A DNA stretch of 64,000 nucleotides from Achromobacter ruhlandii (GTDB lineage Bacteria; Pseudomonadota; Gammaproteobacteria; Burkholderiales; Burkholderiaceae_B), in contig NZ_CADIJL010000012.1 of NCBI RefSeq assembly GCF_902859695.1, positions 62,001 through 126,000 on the forward strand. Direction: 5' to 3'. Each line of letters opens with the position of its first letter. The stretch's first letter is position 1. A model generated the notes under the pieces. It was given only the letters and a program-made list of their open reading frames with translations, did not search any database and was not told the origin of the DNA. Positions 1,921-10,985 of this stretch are shown piece after piece. The position numbers were made by a program, and so were the translations under genes.

Positions 1921-3330
1921 TTACCAGGACACGATCTTGCCCGGGTTGAGAATGTTGTTCGGATCGAACGCGTGCTTGAGGCTGCGCATCAGCGCCAGCG
2001 CGTCATCGCCGTGCTCTTCGGCCATGAACTGCATCTTGTGCAGGCCGACGCCATGCTCGCCCGTGCAGGTGCCATCGGCCGCGATGGCTCGGCGCACCAG
2101 GTTGTGATTGATGGTCTCGGACTCCTGCCATTCGCGCTCGCTGTCGGCGTCCAGCAGCATCAGCACGTGGAAGTTGCCATCACCGACGTGGCCGACGATG
2201 GTGTACGGGAAGCTGGCGCGGTCCAGTTCCTCGACCGTGTCGCGCACGCAGTCGGCCAGGCGCGAGATCGGCACGCACACGTCGGTGGTGCTGGCGCGGC
2301 AGCCGGGGCGCAATTGCAGGCCGGCGAAGTAAGCGTTGTGGCGCGCGGTCCACAGGCGGCTGCGGTCCTCGGGGCGCTCGGCCCATTCGAAGTCCATGCC
2401 GCCATGCTCGGCGGTGATGGCCTGCACGGTCTCGGCCTGCTCCTGCACGCCCGCCGGACTGCCGTGGAATTCAAACACCAGCAGCGGCGTTTCGCGCAGC
2501 GTCAGCTTGCTGTGCAGGTTGACAGCGCGCACGCTGGCCGCGTCCATGAACTCGACGCGCGCCACCGGCACGCCCATCTGGATGATTTCGATCACGCTCT
2601 GTACCGCGGCATCGAGCGTGGGGAAGTTGCAGACCGCGGCCGACACGGCCTCGGGCTGCGGATACAGGCGCACGGTGACTTCGGTGATGATGCCCAGCGT
2701 GCCTTCGCTGCCCACGAAGATGCGGGTCAGGTCGTAGCCGGCCGACGACTTGCGGGCGCGGCCGGCGGTGCGCACGATGCGGCCGTCGGCGGTGACCACG
2801 GTCAGCGACATGACGTTCTCGCGCATGGTGCCGTAGCGCACGGCGTTGGTGCCGGAGGCGCGCGTGGCGGCCATGCCGCCCAGGCTGGCGTCGGCGCCCG
2901 GATCGATCGGGAAGAACAGGCCGGTGCCGCGGATCTCTTCATTGAGCTGCTTGCGCAGCACGCCGGCCTGCACGGTGGCGGTCAGGTCTTCGGCGTTGAC
3001 GGCCAGCACCTTGTTCATCTGCGACAGGTCCAGGCTGATGCCGCCCTGGATCGCCAGGATGTGGCCCTCCAGCGACGACCCCGCGCCGTAGGGAATCAGC
3101 GGCACGCGGTGTTCGTTGCACAGCCTGGCGACCTCGGCGACTTCCTCGGTGCTCTGGGCGAAGACCACGGCATCGGGCAGCATCGCCGGATACGGCGACT
3201 CATCGCGGCCATGGTGTTCGCGCACCGCGGCGGATTCGGAGAAGCGGTCGCCGAAGCGGGCGCGCAGGGCCTCGAGACAAGCGGCCGGCACCGCGCGGCG
3301 CAACGATTCAGCGTGCAAGGGAGCGTTCAT
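1921..3330 (-). CDS. FAD-linked oxidase, D-lactate dehydrogenase (cytochrome)-like
   Basis: 469 residues from the ATG at 3330. It is a paralogue of GlcD in the FAD-binding oxidase family, closer to the mitochondrial-type D-lactate dehydrogenase (LDHD). Supporting motifs are PYGAGSSLEGH near residue 85 for the FAD pyrophosphate, GSEGTLGIITEV near residue 205, and the C-terminal HVGDGNFHV and GEHGVGLHK that carry catalytic and metal-binding residues. It probably oxidises a D-2-hydroxy acid such as D-lactate to the 2-oxo acid. A strong terminator follows it, so it is not simply the first gene of the glc operon although it points the same way. The exact substrate cannot be read from sequence. Confidence 0.85.
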   Translation of the reverse strand: MNAPLHAESLRRAVPAACLEALRARFGDRFSESAAVREHHGRDESPYPAMLPDAVVFAQSTEEVAEVARLCNEHRVPLIPYGAGSSLEGHILAIQGGISLDLSQMNKVLAVNAEDLTATVQAGVLRKQLNEEIRGTGLFFPIDPGADASLGGMAATRASGTNAVRYGTMRENVMSLTVVTADGRIVRTAGRARKSSAGYDLTRIFVGSEGTLGIITEVTVRLYPQPEAVSAAVCNFPTLDAAVQSVIEIIQMGVPVARVEFMDAASVRAVNLHSKLTLRETPLLVFEFHGSPAGVQEQAETVQAITAEHGGMDFEWAERPEDRSRLWTARHNAYFAGLQLRPGCRASTTDVCVPISRLADCVRDTVEELDRASFPYTIVGHVGDGNFHVLMLLDADSEREWQESETINHNLVRRAIAADGTCTGEHGVGLHKMQFMAEEHGDDALALMRSLKHAFDPNNILNPGKIVSW

Positions 3331-3427
3331 GATCAGCGGATTCTCGGATGGGGAATCCGGATATTCTACGCCGCCCGCCTTGCTGCGCCGCAAACCGTCC
3401 GCCTGGACGGCTCGCGGCCGTTGCGGC

Positions 3428-4501
3428 TCATTTGCCGGAGGTAAGCGCAACCCGGCGGCGCTCCCGCACGGCATGCGCCAGGCGCTCGAGCACGGCCACC
3501 GAGGCGTCCCAGTCGATGCAGCCGTCAGTGATGCTCTGGCCGTAGACCAGCGGCGTGCCCGGCACCATGTCCTGGCGGCCGCCGAGCAGATGGCTTTCGA
3601 CCATCACGCCGACAAGACGCGCGTCGCCCGCTTCCATCTGACGCGCCACGTCCTCGATCACCAGAGGCTGGTTCTCGGGCTTCTTGCTGCTGTTGGCGTG
3701 GCTGGCGTCGATCATGATGCGTTGCGCCAGGCCGGCCTTGGACATGTCCTGGCAGGCCGCATCGACACTGGCGGCGTCGTAGTTCGGCGTCTTGCCGCCG
3801 CGCAGGATGACGTGACAGTCCTCGTTGCCGGCCGTCGAGACGATGGCCGAATGCCCGCCCTTGGTCACCGACAGGAAATGGTGCGGCTGCGATGCCGCCT
3901 TGATCGCGTCCACGGCGATCTTCACATTGCCATCCGTGCCGTTCTTGAAACCCACCGGACACGACAGTCCGGATGCCAGTTCGCGATGCACCTGGCTCTC
4001 CGTCGTGCGCGCCCCGATCGCCCCCCAGGAAACCAGGTCCGCAATGTACTGCGGCGTAATCATGTCCAGGAACTCGCACCCCGCCGGCAGCCCCAGGCTG
4101 TTGATATCCAGCAGCAGCTCGCGCGCCACGCGCACGCCCTTGTTGATGTCGAAGCTGCCATCCAGGTCCGGGTCGTTGATCAGCCCCTTCCAACCGACCG
4201 TGGTGCGGGGCTTCTCGAAATACACGCGCATCACGATTTCCAGGTCCGCGCTGAGACGGTCACGCACCGGCTTCAGGCGCTTCGCGTATTCGATCGCGGC
4301 GCGGGTGTCGTGGATCGAACACGGGCCGATCACGACGATCATGCGGTCGTCCATGCCATGCAGGATGCGGTGCATCGACTGCCGGGCGGCGAACACGGTG
4401 TCGGAAGCTTCCTTGGTGCAGGCGAACTCGCGCATGACGTGCGCGGGCGGGTTCAGCTCTTTGATTTCTCGGATGCGAAGGTCGTCGGTATTGTGTGACA
4501 C
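3428..4501 (-). CDS. aroG: 3-deoxy-7-phosphoheptulonate (DAHP) synthase, class I
   Basis: Condenses phosphoenolpyruvate with erythrose 4-phosphate, the first step of the shikimate pathway to Phe, Tyr and Trp. The protein is collinear with E. coli AroG, including VVIGPCSIHD, MRVYFEKPRTTVGWKG, GARTTESQVHRELASGLS and IDASHANSSK. I take the GTG at 4501 as the start (357 residues): AGGAG lies seven bases upstream and the family N-terminus (NTDDLRIREIKEL) begins right after it. An ATG at 4555 would add 18 unrelated residues overlapping the leader RNA. Upstream sits a leader peptide rich in Phe and Tyr codons plus a terminator, implying attenuation control by charged Phe/Tyr tRNA. Which amino acid inhibits the enzyme itself is not evident. 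Confidence 0.95.
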   Translation of the reverse strand: MSHNTDDLRIREIKELNPPAHVMREFACTKEASDTVFAARQSMHRILHGMDDRMIVVIGPCSIHDTRAAIEYAKRLKPVRDRLSADLEIVMRVYFEKPRTTVGWKGLINDPDLDGSFDINKGVRVARELLLDINSLGLPAGCEFLDMITPQYIADLVSWGAIGARTTESQVHRELASGLSCPVGFKNGTDGNVKIAVDAIKAASQPHHFLSVTKGGHSAIVSTAGNEDCHVILRGGKTPNYDAASVDAACQDMSKAGLAQRIMIDASHANSSKKPENQPLVIEDVARQMEAGDARLVGVMVESHLLGGRQDMVPGTPLVYGQSITDGCIDWDASVAVLERLAHAVRERRRVALTSGK

Positions 4502-4566
4502 GGTACTGCTCCTGGGTTTCCCGCCACCGGGATCGGTCCCGGGGTTGTTCCTCAAGCTGACGGCAC

Positions 4567-4593
4567 AAAAAAAGCCGCCAGTTCGCTGGCGGC
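4567..4593 (-). terminator. Attenuator terminator in the aroG leader
   Basis: On the minus strand GCCGCCAG, a CGAA loop and CTGGCGGC are followed by seven T residues, forming an eight-base-pair intrinsic terminator. It sits between the leader peptide stop (4620) and the aroG start (4501), inside the aroG leader rather than behind an upstream gene. Its 5' arm (CCGCCAGCG, 4592 down to 4584) is complementary to CGCTGGCGG in the leader peptide frame (4651 down to 4643), so an antiterminator can replace it. Confidence 0.85.
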
Positions 4594-4619
4594 TTTTTTG
4601 GGGGGATTCTTTCCAAACT

Positions 4620-4703
4620 TCAGATTGAGCGCTTCCCTTCCTCCGCCAGCGGCTTCAGAAAACCAAAAAAATAAAAGTAAAAGGCGGGGGAAGCGAATTT
4701 CAT
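4620..4703 (-). CDS. Aromatic leader peptide of aroG (27 residues)
   Basis: ATG at 4703, TGA at 4620-4622. The peptide begins MKFASPA, and residues 8 to 15 are F-Y-F-Y-F-F-G-F, seven aromatic residues out of eight with no Trp. The C-terminal part is charged and ordinary (ending GKRSI). This is the layout of attenuation leaders such as the pheA leader. Codons 4-7 (GCTTCCC and CCGCC, 4694 to 4683) can pair with GGCGG and GGGAAGC (4647 to 4631), placing the Phe/Tyr codons in the loop; a ribosome stalled there would free the downstream segment to form the antiterminator. No strong ribosome-binding site is visible, and the predicted transcript starts almost at the ATG. Translation is inferred, not shown. 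Confidence 0.78.
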   Translation of the reverse strand: MKFASPAFYFYFFGFLKPLAEEGKRSI

Positions 4704-4711
4704 GGGAAAAG

Positions 4712-4740
4712 ACTCTAGCACAATTTTTTCGGGCCGTCAC
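4712..4740 (-). promoter_or_regulatory. Predicted aroG leader promoter
   Basis: On the minus strand GTGACG (4740 to 4735, TGAC core of the -35), a 17-base spacer, and TAGAGT (4717 to 4712) preceded by TGC, giving an extended -10. A start six to eight bases downstream would fall at about 4705, only two or three bases before the leader peptide ATG at 4703. Confidence 0.55.
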
Positions 4741-8279: not shown

Positions 8280-10985
8280 ATGCGCACAGACACGCCCGTT
8301 ACCGTATACCGCAAGGATTACCAGCCCTACCCCTACGACATTCCGCAAGTCTCCCTGGCCTTCGACCTGGCGCCCGACAGCACCGAGGTGCGCTGCATCA
8401 TGCAGGTGCGGCGCAAGGCCGATGCCAGCGCCGACGCCGCCCTGGTGCTGGACGGCGAAGAGCTGGAACTCGTCTCGGTAGGCGTGGACGGCCAGGCCCT
8501 GCCGGCCGACCGCTACCACCTGTCCGAACACAGCCTGGCGCTGTACGGCCTGCCCGCCGAAGCCACCGTGGAGATCGTCAGCCGTTGCAAGCCCTCGGCC
8601 AACTCAACGCTGATGGGCCTGTACGTCTCGGGCGGCAATTTCTTCACCCAATGCGAGGCGGAGGGATTTCGCCGCATCACCTGGTTCGCCGACAGGCCGG
8701 ACGTCATGTCGCGCTACCGCGTGACCTTGCGCGCCGCGCCGGCCTATCCGGTGCTGCTGTCCAACGGCAACCTGGTTGCCTCGCGCCAGTTGCCCGACGG
8801 CCGCAACGAGGTGGAATGGGAAGACCCGTTCCCCAAGCCCTGCTATCTGTTCGCGCTGGTGGGCGGCAACCTGACGCAGCGCGAAACCAAGGTCAAGACC
8901 GCCAGCGGCCGTGACGTGCTGCTGCAGGTCTACAGCGACCCGGGCGCCGAGACCAAGACCGAATGGGCGCTGGACTCCCTGGTGCGCGCGTTGCGTTGGG
9001 ACGAAACCCGTTTCGGCCTGGAACTCGACCTGGACCGCTTCATGGTGGTGGCCGTCCATGACTTCAATATGGGCGCGATGGAGAACAAGGGCCTGAACAT
9101 CTTCAATGCCGCCTACGTGCTGGCCGACGCGGATACCGCCACGGACGCCAATTACGAGGGCATCGAATCGGTCATCGGCCACGAGTACTTTCACAACTGG
9201 ACCGGCAACCGCGTCACCTGCCGCGACTGGTTCCAGTTGAGCCTGAAGGAAGGGCTGACCGTCTTCCGCGACCAGGAATTCAGCGCCGACATGATGGCGC
9301 AAGGCATGGACGAAACCGCCGCCGCCAGCGCCCGCGCGGTCAAGCGCATCGACGACGTGGTGACACTGCGCGCGGCGCAATTCCCGGAGGACGCGGGTCC
9401 GATGGCCCACCCGATCCGCCCCGACAGTTATCAGGAAATCGGCAACTTCTATACCGCCACGGTGTACGAGAAAGGCGCCGAGGTCATCCGCATGCAGCAC
9501 ACGCTGCTGGGCGAAGCCGGTTTCCGCGCCGGCATGGACGAGTATTTCCGCCGCCACGACGGCCAGGCCGTGACCTGCGACGACTTCGTCGCCGCCATGG
9601 AATCGGTCTACACCCGTCAGCACCCGGGCCGCGATCTGTCGGTGTTCCGCAACTGGTACCGCCAGGCCGGCACGCCGCGCGTTAGCGTCCAGTTGACGCA
9701 CGACGCCGCCGCGCGCCGCTGCACCGTGACGTTGTCGCAGGAATGCCAGCCGGTCGGTGTCGAGAAAAAGGCCCCCGCCGGCTTCGTCAAGGCGCCCTAC
9801 CATATCCCCTTCGCCATCGGCCTGCTGGACCGCAATGGCCGCGCCCTGCCCTTGCGCCATGACGGCGCGGTCAAGGACACCGCGCTGCTGGAACTGACCA
9901 CGCAGAGCCAGCAATGGCATTTCGACGACATCGACGAAATGCCGGTGCCGTCGCTGCTGCGCGACTTTTCCGCGCCGGTGATCGTCGATTACGACTGGAC
10001 CGACGAGGAGTTGGCGCTGCTGTCGGCCCACGACGGCAACCCGTTCGCGCGCTGGGAAGCCGGCCAGGAACTGGCCACCCGCCAGATCCTGGCGCTGGCC
10101 GAGGCGCGCCAGGCCGGCCGCACGCTGCACGCCGACCCGGCCTTCATCGCCGCCTGGCGCGCGCTGTTGACCGACCCGGCGCTGGATGCCGCTTACCGCG
10201 CCCGCGCCCTGGCGCTGCCCTCGGAAAAGACCCTGGCCGAACGCATGCAGGCCGTCGATCCGCCGGCGCTGGCGGTGGCGCGCGATTTCCTGCGCGCCGA
10301 GCTGGGCCGGCAGTTGGCGGCCGAATTCCGCCAGGCCTTCGACGACAACCAGACGCCGGGCGAATACAGCCCCGCGCCCGTGCCGGCCGGCAAGCGGGCC
10401 ATGAAGAACCTGGCGCTCAGCCACCTGATGGCGGCCGGCGAGCACGAGGCGCAGCGCCTGGCCGAACAGCAATACGAACACGCCGGCAACATGACCGACA
10501 GCATGGCGGCATTGTCGGCCCTGATCAACTACGGCCAGGGCGACTTCCCGCAACGGGCGCTGGCGGCGTTCTACGACAAATGGCATGACAACGCGCTGGT
10601 GGTGGACAAGTGGTTCGCGCTGCAGGCGGCGGCGCGCTACACCACGGTGCAGACCGCGCGCGAACTGATGACGCACCCGGCGTTCACGCTGCGCAACCCG
10701 AACCGGGCGCGCGCGCTGATTTTCCAGTTCTGCCTGAACAATGCCCGCGGCATGCACCACCCGGATGGCTCGGGCTACGCCTTCTGGGCCGACCAGGTGC
10801 TGGCGCTGGACGCCCTCAACCCGGAAATCGCCGCCCGCCTGGCGCGCGCGCTGGACAACTGGTCGCGCTACGTGCCGGCCCTGCGCGGCCCCATGCAGGA
10901 AGCGCTGCAGCGGGTGCGCGCCCACGAAGGGCTGTCGCGCAACGTGCAGGAAATCGTATCCAAGGCTTTAGAATTCGCAGCATAG
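8280..10985 (+). CDS. pepN: Aminopeptidase N (M1 family)
   Basis: 901 residues from the ATG at 8280 (E. coli PepN is 870). It removes N-terminal residues from peptides in the cytoplasm. The exopeptidase motif GAMENKGLN is present, as is the zinc site [11 protein letters not shown] followed 18 residues later by the third ligand in LKEGLTVF. A longer in-frame start at 8172 would add 36 residues not seen in the family. fbp begins ten bases after the stop, so the two probably share a transcript. Confidence 0.96.

Follow-up and report, generated by a model that had tools for sequence, protein, structure and literature searches.

The stretch between tldD and aroG in this Achromobacter ruhlandii DNA very probably encodes a ribosome-mediated transcription attenuator of aroG. 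Hallmarks of such an element are found here: a short leader ORF with many codons for the end products and an intrinsic terminator between that ORF and the structural gene are present at the locus, an antiterminator that is mutually exclusive with the terminator is conserved among relatives, and masking of the RNA by a stalled ribosome in silico frees that antiterminator. The gene product is a DAHP synthase, which sets the flow into all of the aromatic amino acids, and if our reading is right many betaproteobacteria, Xanthomonadales and Rhizobiales control entry into the pathway by tRNA charging, unlike E. coli, in which the TyrR and TrpR repressors are described as controlling it (PMC5343134).

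The aroG locus and the pairings of its leader

On its minus strand the window (the whole stretch of 64,000 nucleotides that was analysed) carries tldD (6280-4790), then the leader ORF and its intrinsic terminator, and then aroG; the features are collected in Table 1. The aroG product matches NCBIfam NF006723 at 584.7 bits (cut-off 568) and also Pfam PF00793. Downstream of aroG lie tandem genes for FAD-linked oxidases, at 155-1816 (by Pfam) and 1921-3474 (GlcD-like), both on the minus strand. The genome is 6.86 Mb in size, and its AroG shares ~89% identity with the AroG of Bordetella genomosp. 2. The same genome has a second class I DAHP synthase (paralogue L002, G000:C43:12491-13531), which is 59% identical to AroG and has neither an aromatic leader nor a terminator within 600 nt upstream. 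A class II DAHP synthase as cover for control by tryptophan was rejected for this genome, since a search of it with PF01474 was empty.

Table 1. Features of the aroG leader region (positions in the window)
Feature	Position	Strand	Details
Candidate -35, GTGACG	4735..4740	-	17 nt upstream of the -10 hexamer; putative function
Extended -10, TGCTAGAGT	4712..4720	-	ends 8 nt ahead of the leader AUG
Leader ORF	4620..4703	-	27 codons plus stop, MKFASPAFYFYFFGFLKPLAEEGKRSI; ATG 4703-4701, stop 4622-4620
Segment 1	4683..4694	-	GCTTCCCCCGCC; in the fold, base-paired to segment 2 and the purine tract 3' of it
Control codons 8-15	4659..4682	-	F Y F Y F F G F; TTT TAC TTT TAT TTT TTT GGT TTT
Segment 2	4643..4651	-	CGCTGGCGG; 5' strand of the antiterminator, within the leader ORF
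Purine tract GGGAAGC	4631..4637	-	partner of segment 1; possible 2b strand of an extended antiterminator
TCCCCCC	4600..4606	-	directly 5' of the terminator; possible 3b strand (fold)
Intrinsic terminator	4567..4599	-	3:4 hairpin with A tract; T-run 4573-4567
Segment 3	4584..4592	-	CCGCCAGCG; common to antiterminator and terminator
aroG Shine-Dalgarno, AGGAG	4509..4513	-	from the sequence
aroG	3428..4501	-	class I DAHP synthase, 357 aa, start codon GTG

The initial annotation described a 27-codon frame with seven Phe or Tyr codons in eight positions, followed by an intrinsic terminator and then by aroG. Re-reading of the sequence gave exactly this frame, with aromatic residues at seven of the eight codons 8-15 and every Phe encoded by TTT, and the terminator and the gene after it are borne out by the sequence and its fold. 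The aromatic leader ORF is not due to chance: none of 5000 dinucleotide shuffles of the locus's 630-nt stretch (600 nt upstream plus 30 nt of the gene) reached seven aromatic codons in eight and one reached six, and a short ORF with at least six in eight is present in 136 of 191 upstream regions (below) as against 6 of 3820 dinucleotide shuffles. In the aromatic runs of this leader and its relatives 416 of 510 Phe codons are TTT, compared with 8 of 82 in a reference set of five ORFs from the window, one of which (8604-10925) matches no family and is perhaps not a gene. TTT and TTC are normally read by one tRNA, and the preference for TTT favours either an unstructured, U-rich run or slow decoding.

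Three mutually exclusive pairings had been proposed for this leader (mutually exclusive pairings also characterize the pheA attenuator), and their coordinates and pair counts all proved correct in the sequence. Segment 1 (4694-4683) pairs with 4647-4631 (GGCGG-AGGAA-GGGAAGC) over 12 base pairs interrupted by a bulge of 5 nt; segments 2 and 3 form nine perfect base pairs, and segment 3 pairs with segment 4 in the terminator hairpin. Segment 2 sits inside the leader ORF, about 7-10 codons ahead of the stop. The arrangement had been likened to that of trp and phe leaders; the aromatic codons do lie between segments 1 and 2, but the likeness to trp is loose, since segment 1 contains the control codons in the trp leader of E. 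coli but precedes them in the aroG leader. Folding of the 161-nt leader (4720-4560) gave the form that has the 1:2 helix and the terminator. Its energy is ordinary (z of -1.54, with 12 of 200 shuffles at least as stable, and z of -1.57 without segment 1), and being scarcely better than that of shuffles it was rejected as evidence for the element. Because fold energy alone is unexceptional, the case rests on comparison.

Conservation of the codons, antiterminator and terminator

The comparison covered 191 upstream regions, 111 loci and 80 regions, which include the aroG of this genome, its paralogue L002, five other paralogues and many near relatives. They were obtained as follows: a family sample of 151 searched genomes, 146 of them with a match, supplied loci L001-L031 and the 80 regions (five from paralogues), and a further 80 loci, from mostly named genomes, are the best 80 of a longer list. 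An ATG-initiated leader with at least four aromatic codons in eight was found in 157 of the 191, and 154 of these have a terminator; selection on length and score left 147, removal of near-duplicates left 123, and 66 were picked by hand for alignment A1, which consists mainly of leaders of the PLAEEG type, with four from Xanthomonadaceae and none from Burkholderia, Oxalobacteraceae or alphaproteobacteria. Subsets of the 123 were 106 leaders with both cores (below), 115 for the 1:2 helix, 122 for the promoter and 60 for codon usage.

The terminator, defined as a hairpin of -10 kcal/mol or lower plus a T-run, is present in 154 of 157 leaders as a raw count, with an overlap of the chosen ORF's end in two. 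No aromatic ORF is present in the six paralogue regions (L002 and five elsewhere), of which one contains a terminator-like hairpin. In A1 the strand CCGCTGGYGGAGGAAGGG and the terminator are strongly conserved. Segment 2 mostly begins 8-19 nt past the aromatic run and matches the 5' arm of the terminator, and the best 2:3 helix is better than in shuffles at p<0.05 in 104 of 147 leaders, near relatives included (p>=0.05 in the other 43). Cores GGYGG and CCGCC are both present in 106 of 123 leaders. Rows were found by this near-invariant segment 2/3 core, which therefore gives no information through covariation, and because the two cores pair by definition only their flanks are informative. These flanks co-vary in several groups, for example CTGGCGG:CCGCCAG, CCTGGCGG:CCGCCAGG, ACTGGCGG:CCGCCAGT and AGGCGGT:ACCGCCT. 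Of 424 cells at four flank positions, 279 can pair; 2000 permutations, which ignore relatedness, give 252 on average and 265 at most, and sliding the partner by 1-3 nt lowers the number to 29-188. If the antiterminator is extended by strands 2b and 3b (GGGAA:UUCCC), p<=0.05 is reached in 25 of 106 leaders, which gives such an extension modest support. Conservation of the aromatic codons and pairings among relatives had been set as a test of the original proposal, and the codons, 2:3 and 3:4 do recur in Burkholderiales, Xanthomonadales and several alphaproteobacteria, with the exact cores missing in 17 of 123 leaders.

The residues past the aromatic run are also conserved (PLAEEG or PLVEEG) in many leaders, as would be expected if the nascent peptide, through its PLAEEG part, arrested the ribosome on a free aromatic compound in the way that TnaC does with tryptophan. 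Is this stretch conserved as peptide or as RNA? Codon usage was compared across the 60 leaders that fit P-[LR]-[AV]-x-[EK]: CTG accounts for 57 of 59 Leu codons, GAG for 50 of 50 at the first Glu and GAA for 57 of 59 at the second, and the same codons and their neighbours vary at first and second positions (GAG to CAG or GTG, GCG to GTG); the outer codons are freer (Pro CCG 52 of 60, Gly GGG 43 of 53, Arg CGC 22 and CGT 22). Third positions of Leu and Glu that scarcely vary while first and second positions do indicate that the stretch is constrained as RNA. The peptide moreover changes by lineage (PLADREG, SNPKAVE, DSSLAAGG) while the GGCGG strand is kept. We consider arrest by the peptide quite unlikely, and favour an attenuator that reads tRNA charging through the position of the ribosome.

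The predicted start and the position of the ribosome

The extended -10 box of this locus is so close to the leader ATG that transcription would start at or very near the AUG itself, and similar spacing is common in other leaders. In 66 of 122 leaders the motif TGnTAnnnT ends 6-9 nt 5' of the ATG, and the best -10 match ends 6-11 nt 5' of it in 81 of 122 (letter-shuffle mean, 17.2). Shine-Dalgarno-like 4-mers precede the leader ATG in 24 of 122 leaders and aroG in 115 of 122. The candidate -35 sequence GTGACG is at the same position in six relatives of the same genus (L003-L008). These features suggest a leaderless mRNA, with a predicted start no more than about 3 nt from the leader AUG. In Bradyrhizobium japonicum an extended -10, TGnTA, is given as the motif upstream of leaderless mRNAs (PMC4842269). 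The main texts of the transcription start site papers on Burkholderia cenocepacia (PMC4603805) and B. japonicum (PMC4842269) do not contain aroG by word search. Many leaders of the Burkholderia type and of Oxalobacteraceae have TATAAAG or TATAGT about 25-40 nt upstream instead, so the leaderless feature is not universal.

We propose that the attenuator would work as follows: RNA polymerase would start at or adjoining the leader AUG, and a ribosome would load on this 5' AUG. When charged tRNA-Phe or tRNA-Tyr is scarce the ribosome would stall on codons 8-13, where it would cover segment 1 and leave segment 2 free; segment 2 would then pair with segment 3 ahead of segment 4, no terminator would form and aroG would be transcribed. 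When these tRNAs are charged the ribosome would pass over segment 2 as segment 3 emerges, the 3:4 hairpin would form and transcription would stop near 4567.

The ON side of this scheme was modelled by placing one ribosome footprint at each codon in turn and asking whether 2:3 forms before segment 4 is made. On the present leader 2:3 forms with the ribosome on codons up to 13 and fails to form beyond. Over 106 leaders the probability of 2:3 exceeds 0.5 at 616 of 694 aromatic codons, so that the suggestion that stalling favours the antiterminator holds up in silico; the first aromatic codon is permissive in 100 of 106 leaders. The block to 2:3 begins 0-3 codons past the last aromatic codon in 90 of 106, earlier in 15 and later in one. 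In this model the geometry of the leader is that of a stall sensor. A ribosome at the stop codon permits 2:3 in 67 of 106 leaders, and because of this, and of the early block in 15 of 106, the OFF state needs either timing or the 1:2 helix. In the model OFF probably depends on a moving ribosome that lies over segment 2 while segment 3 emerges.

The segment 1 sequence varies by lineage and still fits its partner in many leaders. Matched 1:2 helices are CGCTTCCC:GGGAAGCG at this locus and CGCGTCCC:GGGACGCG in sister species, and, in other lineages, CGCAATCC:GGATTGCG, GCGTATCC:GGATACGC and CTGTGTC:GACACAG. When 1:2 was scored over 115 leaders, 27 reached p<=0.05 against a shuffled region 1, 15 ranked within the top 5% when partners were swapped and 73 exceeded the median; the Burkholderia-type leaders among the 115 have no 1:2 helix. 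For this pairing the two strands change in step among close relatives and in some other lineages, but leaders of the Burkholderia type do not show this. At equilibrium, for the sequence of this locus before segment 4 exists and with no ribosome present, the calculated probabilities are 0.95 for 2:3 and 0.05 for 1:2, and because 1:2 loses to 2:3 it need not protect strongly. A moving ribosome that occludes segment 2 is a better-supported OFF step than protection by 1:2, which may act as an accessory OFF or pausing element here and in some other lineages.

Occurrence, related systems and descent

A covariance model, R1, was built from A1 with the terminator alone paired and was run on 398 genomes of the phylum, this genome included. 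At E<=0.01 a match is present in 103 of the 398 genomes, many on the terminator part only. Below E 1e-4, a line that was set after the list had been viewed, there are 45 full-length matches, and inspection of all 45, that of the window among them, placed 40 before aroG with an aromatic leader (at least four in eight), four before pheA and one before pheS. The five pheA and pheS matches are Rfam Phe_leader RF01859 at gathering and constitute an unplanned positive control. The matches in Xanthomonadaceae are not independent, because A1 held four leaders from that family. Between E 1e-4 and 0.01, 4 of 16 full-length matches are before aroG with an aromatic leader and 12 are not, and most of the 12 look like chance; two of them (L257 and L265) contain short aromatic ORFs, MKVLVVPYSIYYFRFFIS and MQSYVIDNFWWSFWWS. 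In the genome of this locus a single full-length copy is present among eight R1 matches at E<=1.

Two further explanations of the leader were weighed. The predicted RNA is a small leaderless mRNA, as is rnTrpL (PMC7298713, PMC10117765), and the terminated RNA or its peptide might act mainly in trans, like rnTrpL/peTrpL of Sinorhizobium, with control in cis secondary; that 40 of the 45 strong full-length matches are directly before aroG and the other five before pheA or pheS, and that the conserved pairings are those of an attenuator, makes this highly improbable. The alternative of an ordinary tldD terminator with an aroG promoter after it, and a short ORF that arose by accident, is hardly credible and was rejected even though tldD is directly upstream here and in many of the searched loci, because the aromatic ORF far exceeds chance and the leader and tldD are mismatched across loci: the leader is present with no tldD within the 1.5 kb flank in loci of Xanthomonas, Bradyrhizobium, Mesorhizobium and Devosia, and four Rhodocyclaceae-type loci (L079, L095, L101 and L110) have tldD upstream and no leader.

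Is the attenuator already represented in Rfam? Searches of the window at gathering gave no family for the aroG element, and permissive searches of this locus and ten others gave no fitting match over the leader. The stretch before aroG is therefore unlabelled in the searched loci. RF01859 scores 24.0 bits on this leader (gathering, 55) in a match, 4629-4565, that omits the aromatic codons, and membership of Phe_leader was rejected since the score is below the cut-off. BjrC1505 (RF02356) gave a weak full-length match over the leader (13.7 bits), as if the leader yielded an already described small RNA, and was also rejected; it has above-cut-off copies elsewhere in four alphaproteobacterial genomes. 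The aroG leader resembles the RF01859 pheA/pheST attenuator in its aromatic-codon leader ORF and intrinsic terminator, and the model of the aroG leader finds RF01859 elements; it differs in its gene and lineage, in the added Tyr (elsewhere Trp) codons and in having segment 2 well within the ORF. It also resembles Sinorhizobium meliloti trpL/rnTrpL, a ribosome-dependent attenuator whose mRNA is reported to begin at the leader AUG (PMC7298713, PMC10117765), but there the codons are Trp, the controlled gene is trpE(G) and the leaderless start is a reported one, whereas for aroG it is predicted only.

The initial annotation also knew of no attenuator described for a DAHP synthase in this family. 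In the titles, abstracts and passages among the matches listed none is described for aroG in these bacteria (Vitreschak 2004 is outside this scope), and the matches listed from a survey of premature terminators (PMC2965389) include no aroG. There are nevertheless precedents in other bacteria. For Acholeplasma, uORFC-13-1 has been proposed as a Phe uORF with a terminator before the DAHP synthase gene aroF (PMC8632094); it comprises 24 sequences from Acholeplasma and environmental DNA with a ribosome binding site and at least one Phe codon, and we liken it to the aroG leader by this description. The same paper refers to an older idea of an attenuator for E. coli aroF. Database-predicted attenuators before DAHP-synthase operons are given for Vibrio and other bacteria (PMC1173090), and in two Vibrio species (Table 7 of that paper) a putative attenuator precedes aroA-I-alpha-Y > tyrA, in which the DAHP synthase is of class I-alpha; these are database predictions by name, and the passages on them describe no leader peptide or pairing. 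Two Phe/Tyr uORFs at shikimate genes are listed among five other genomes (PMC6429828). Because DAHP-synthase attenuators were proposed earlier in other bacteria, the mechanism is of a known kind; what is new is the gene, the breadth, the apparent leaderless start and the retuning of the codons. If our reading is correct, the leaders also make up a natural set, Phe/Tyr or Phe/Tyr/Trp and with and without an apparent 5' UTR, for ribosome-polymerase coupling on leaderless messages.

A quick tree of 124 AroG proteins, with SH-aLRT support only, was made from loci chosen by likeness to this AroG or leader; rows were labelled as leader-bearing if they had at least five aromatic codons in eight, plus five loci with four that were named by hand, and two labelled rows (L047 and L091) have no terminator after the chosen ORF. 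Nearly all leader-bearing rows from Xanthomonadales and alphaproteobacteria cluster within Burkholderiales, beside the Bordetella group, and many of their leaders include Trp codons (YFWYF, FYFWYY); a Lysobacterales MAG row (L102) is near the root. A single group of the leader-bearing Burkholderiales rows was rejected (AU p 0.00066, with 10 long or odd rows removed and the group named post hoc). The leader state changes at least nine times on the full tree and four times on the pruned one. Joint transfer of aroG and its leader is plausible from these sequences. We offer more tentatively, at somewhat less than an even chance, the view that aroG and a leaderless aromatic attenuator form a travelling cassette that moved among Burkholderiales-like, Xanthomonadales and several alphaproteobacterial lineages and was retuned with Trp codons, so that the entry enzyme would sense all three aromatic amino acids through tRNA charging with an antiterminator strand that lies in coding sequence. 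Leader-bearing rows L225, L076, L102, L086 and L224 branch near the root, outside most of the leaderless Rhodocyclaceae rows, and because of this we lowered our estimate for the cassette from only just short of even and claim no Burkholderiales origin; the leader may be older and have been lost in Rhodocyclaceae, which argues against a simple origin in Burkholderiales.

Aromatic leaders, most starting MQ, are also present at L224, L243, L244, L250 and L252-L255, whose aroG copies are only about 59-63% identical to the one of this locus, so the attenuator reaches more distant AroG groups. In one group of family genomes (L188, L190, L191 and L171) a distinct type of leader, for example SFYAFFGFFAWFGQAAEEGCA, precedes aroG; its segment 2 matches the terminator over a short stretch (5 nt in L188, L190 and L171, the leaders scored), and it may be a derived form or a different architecture.
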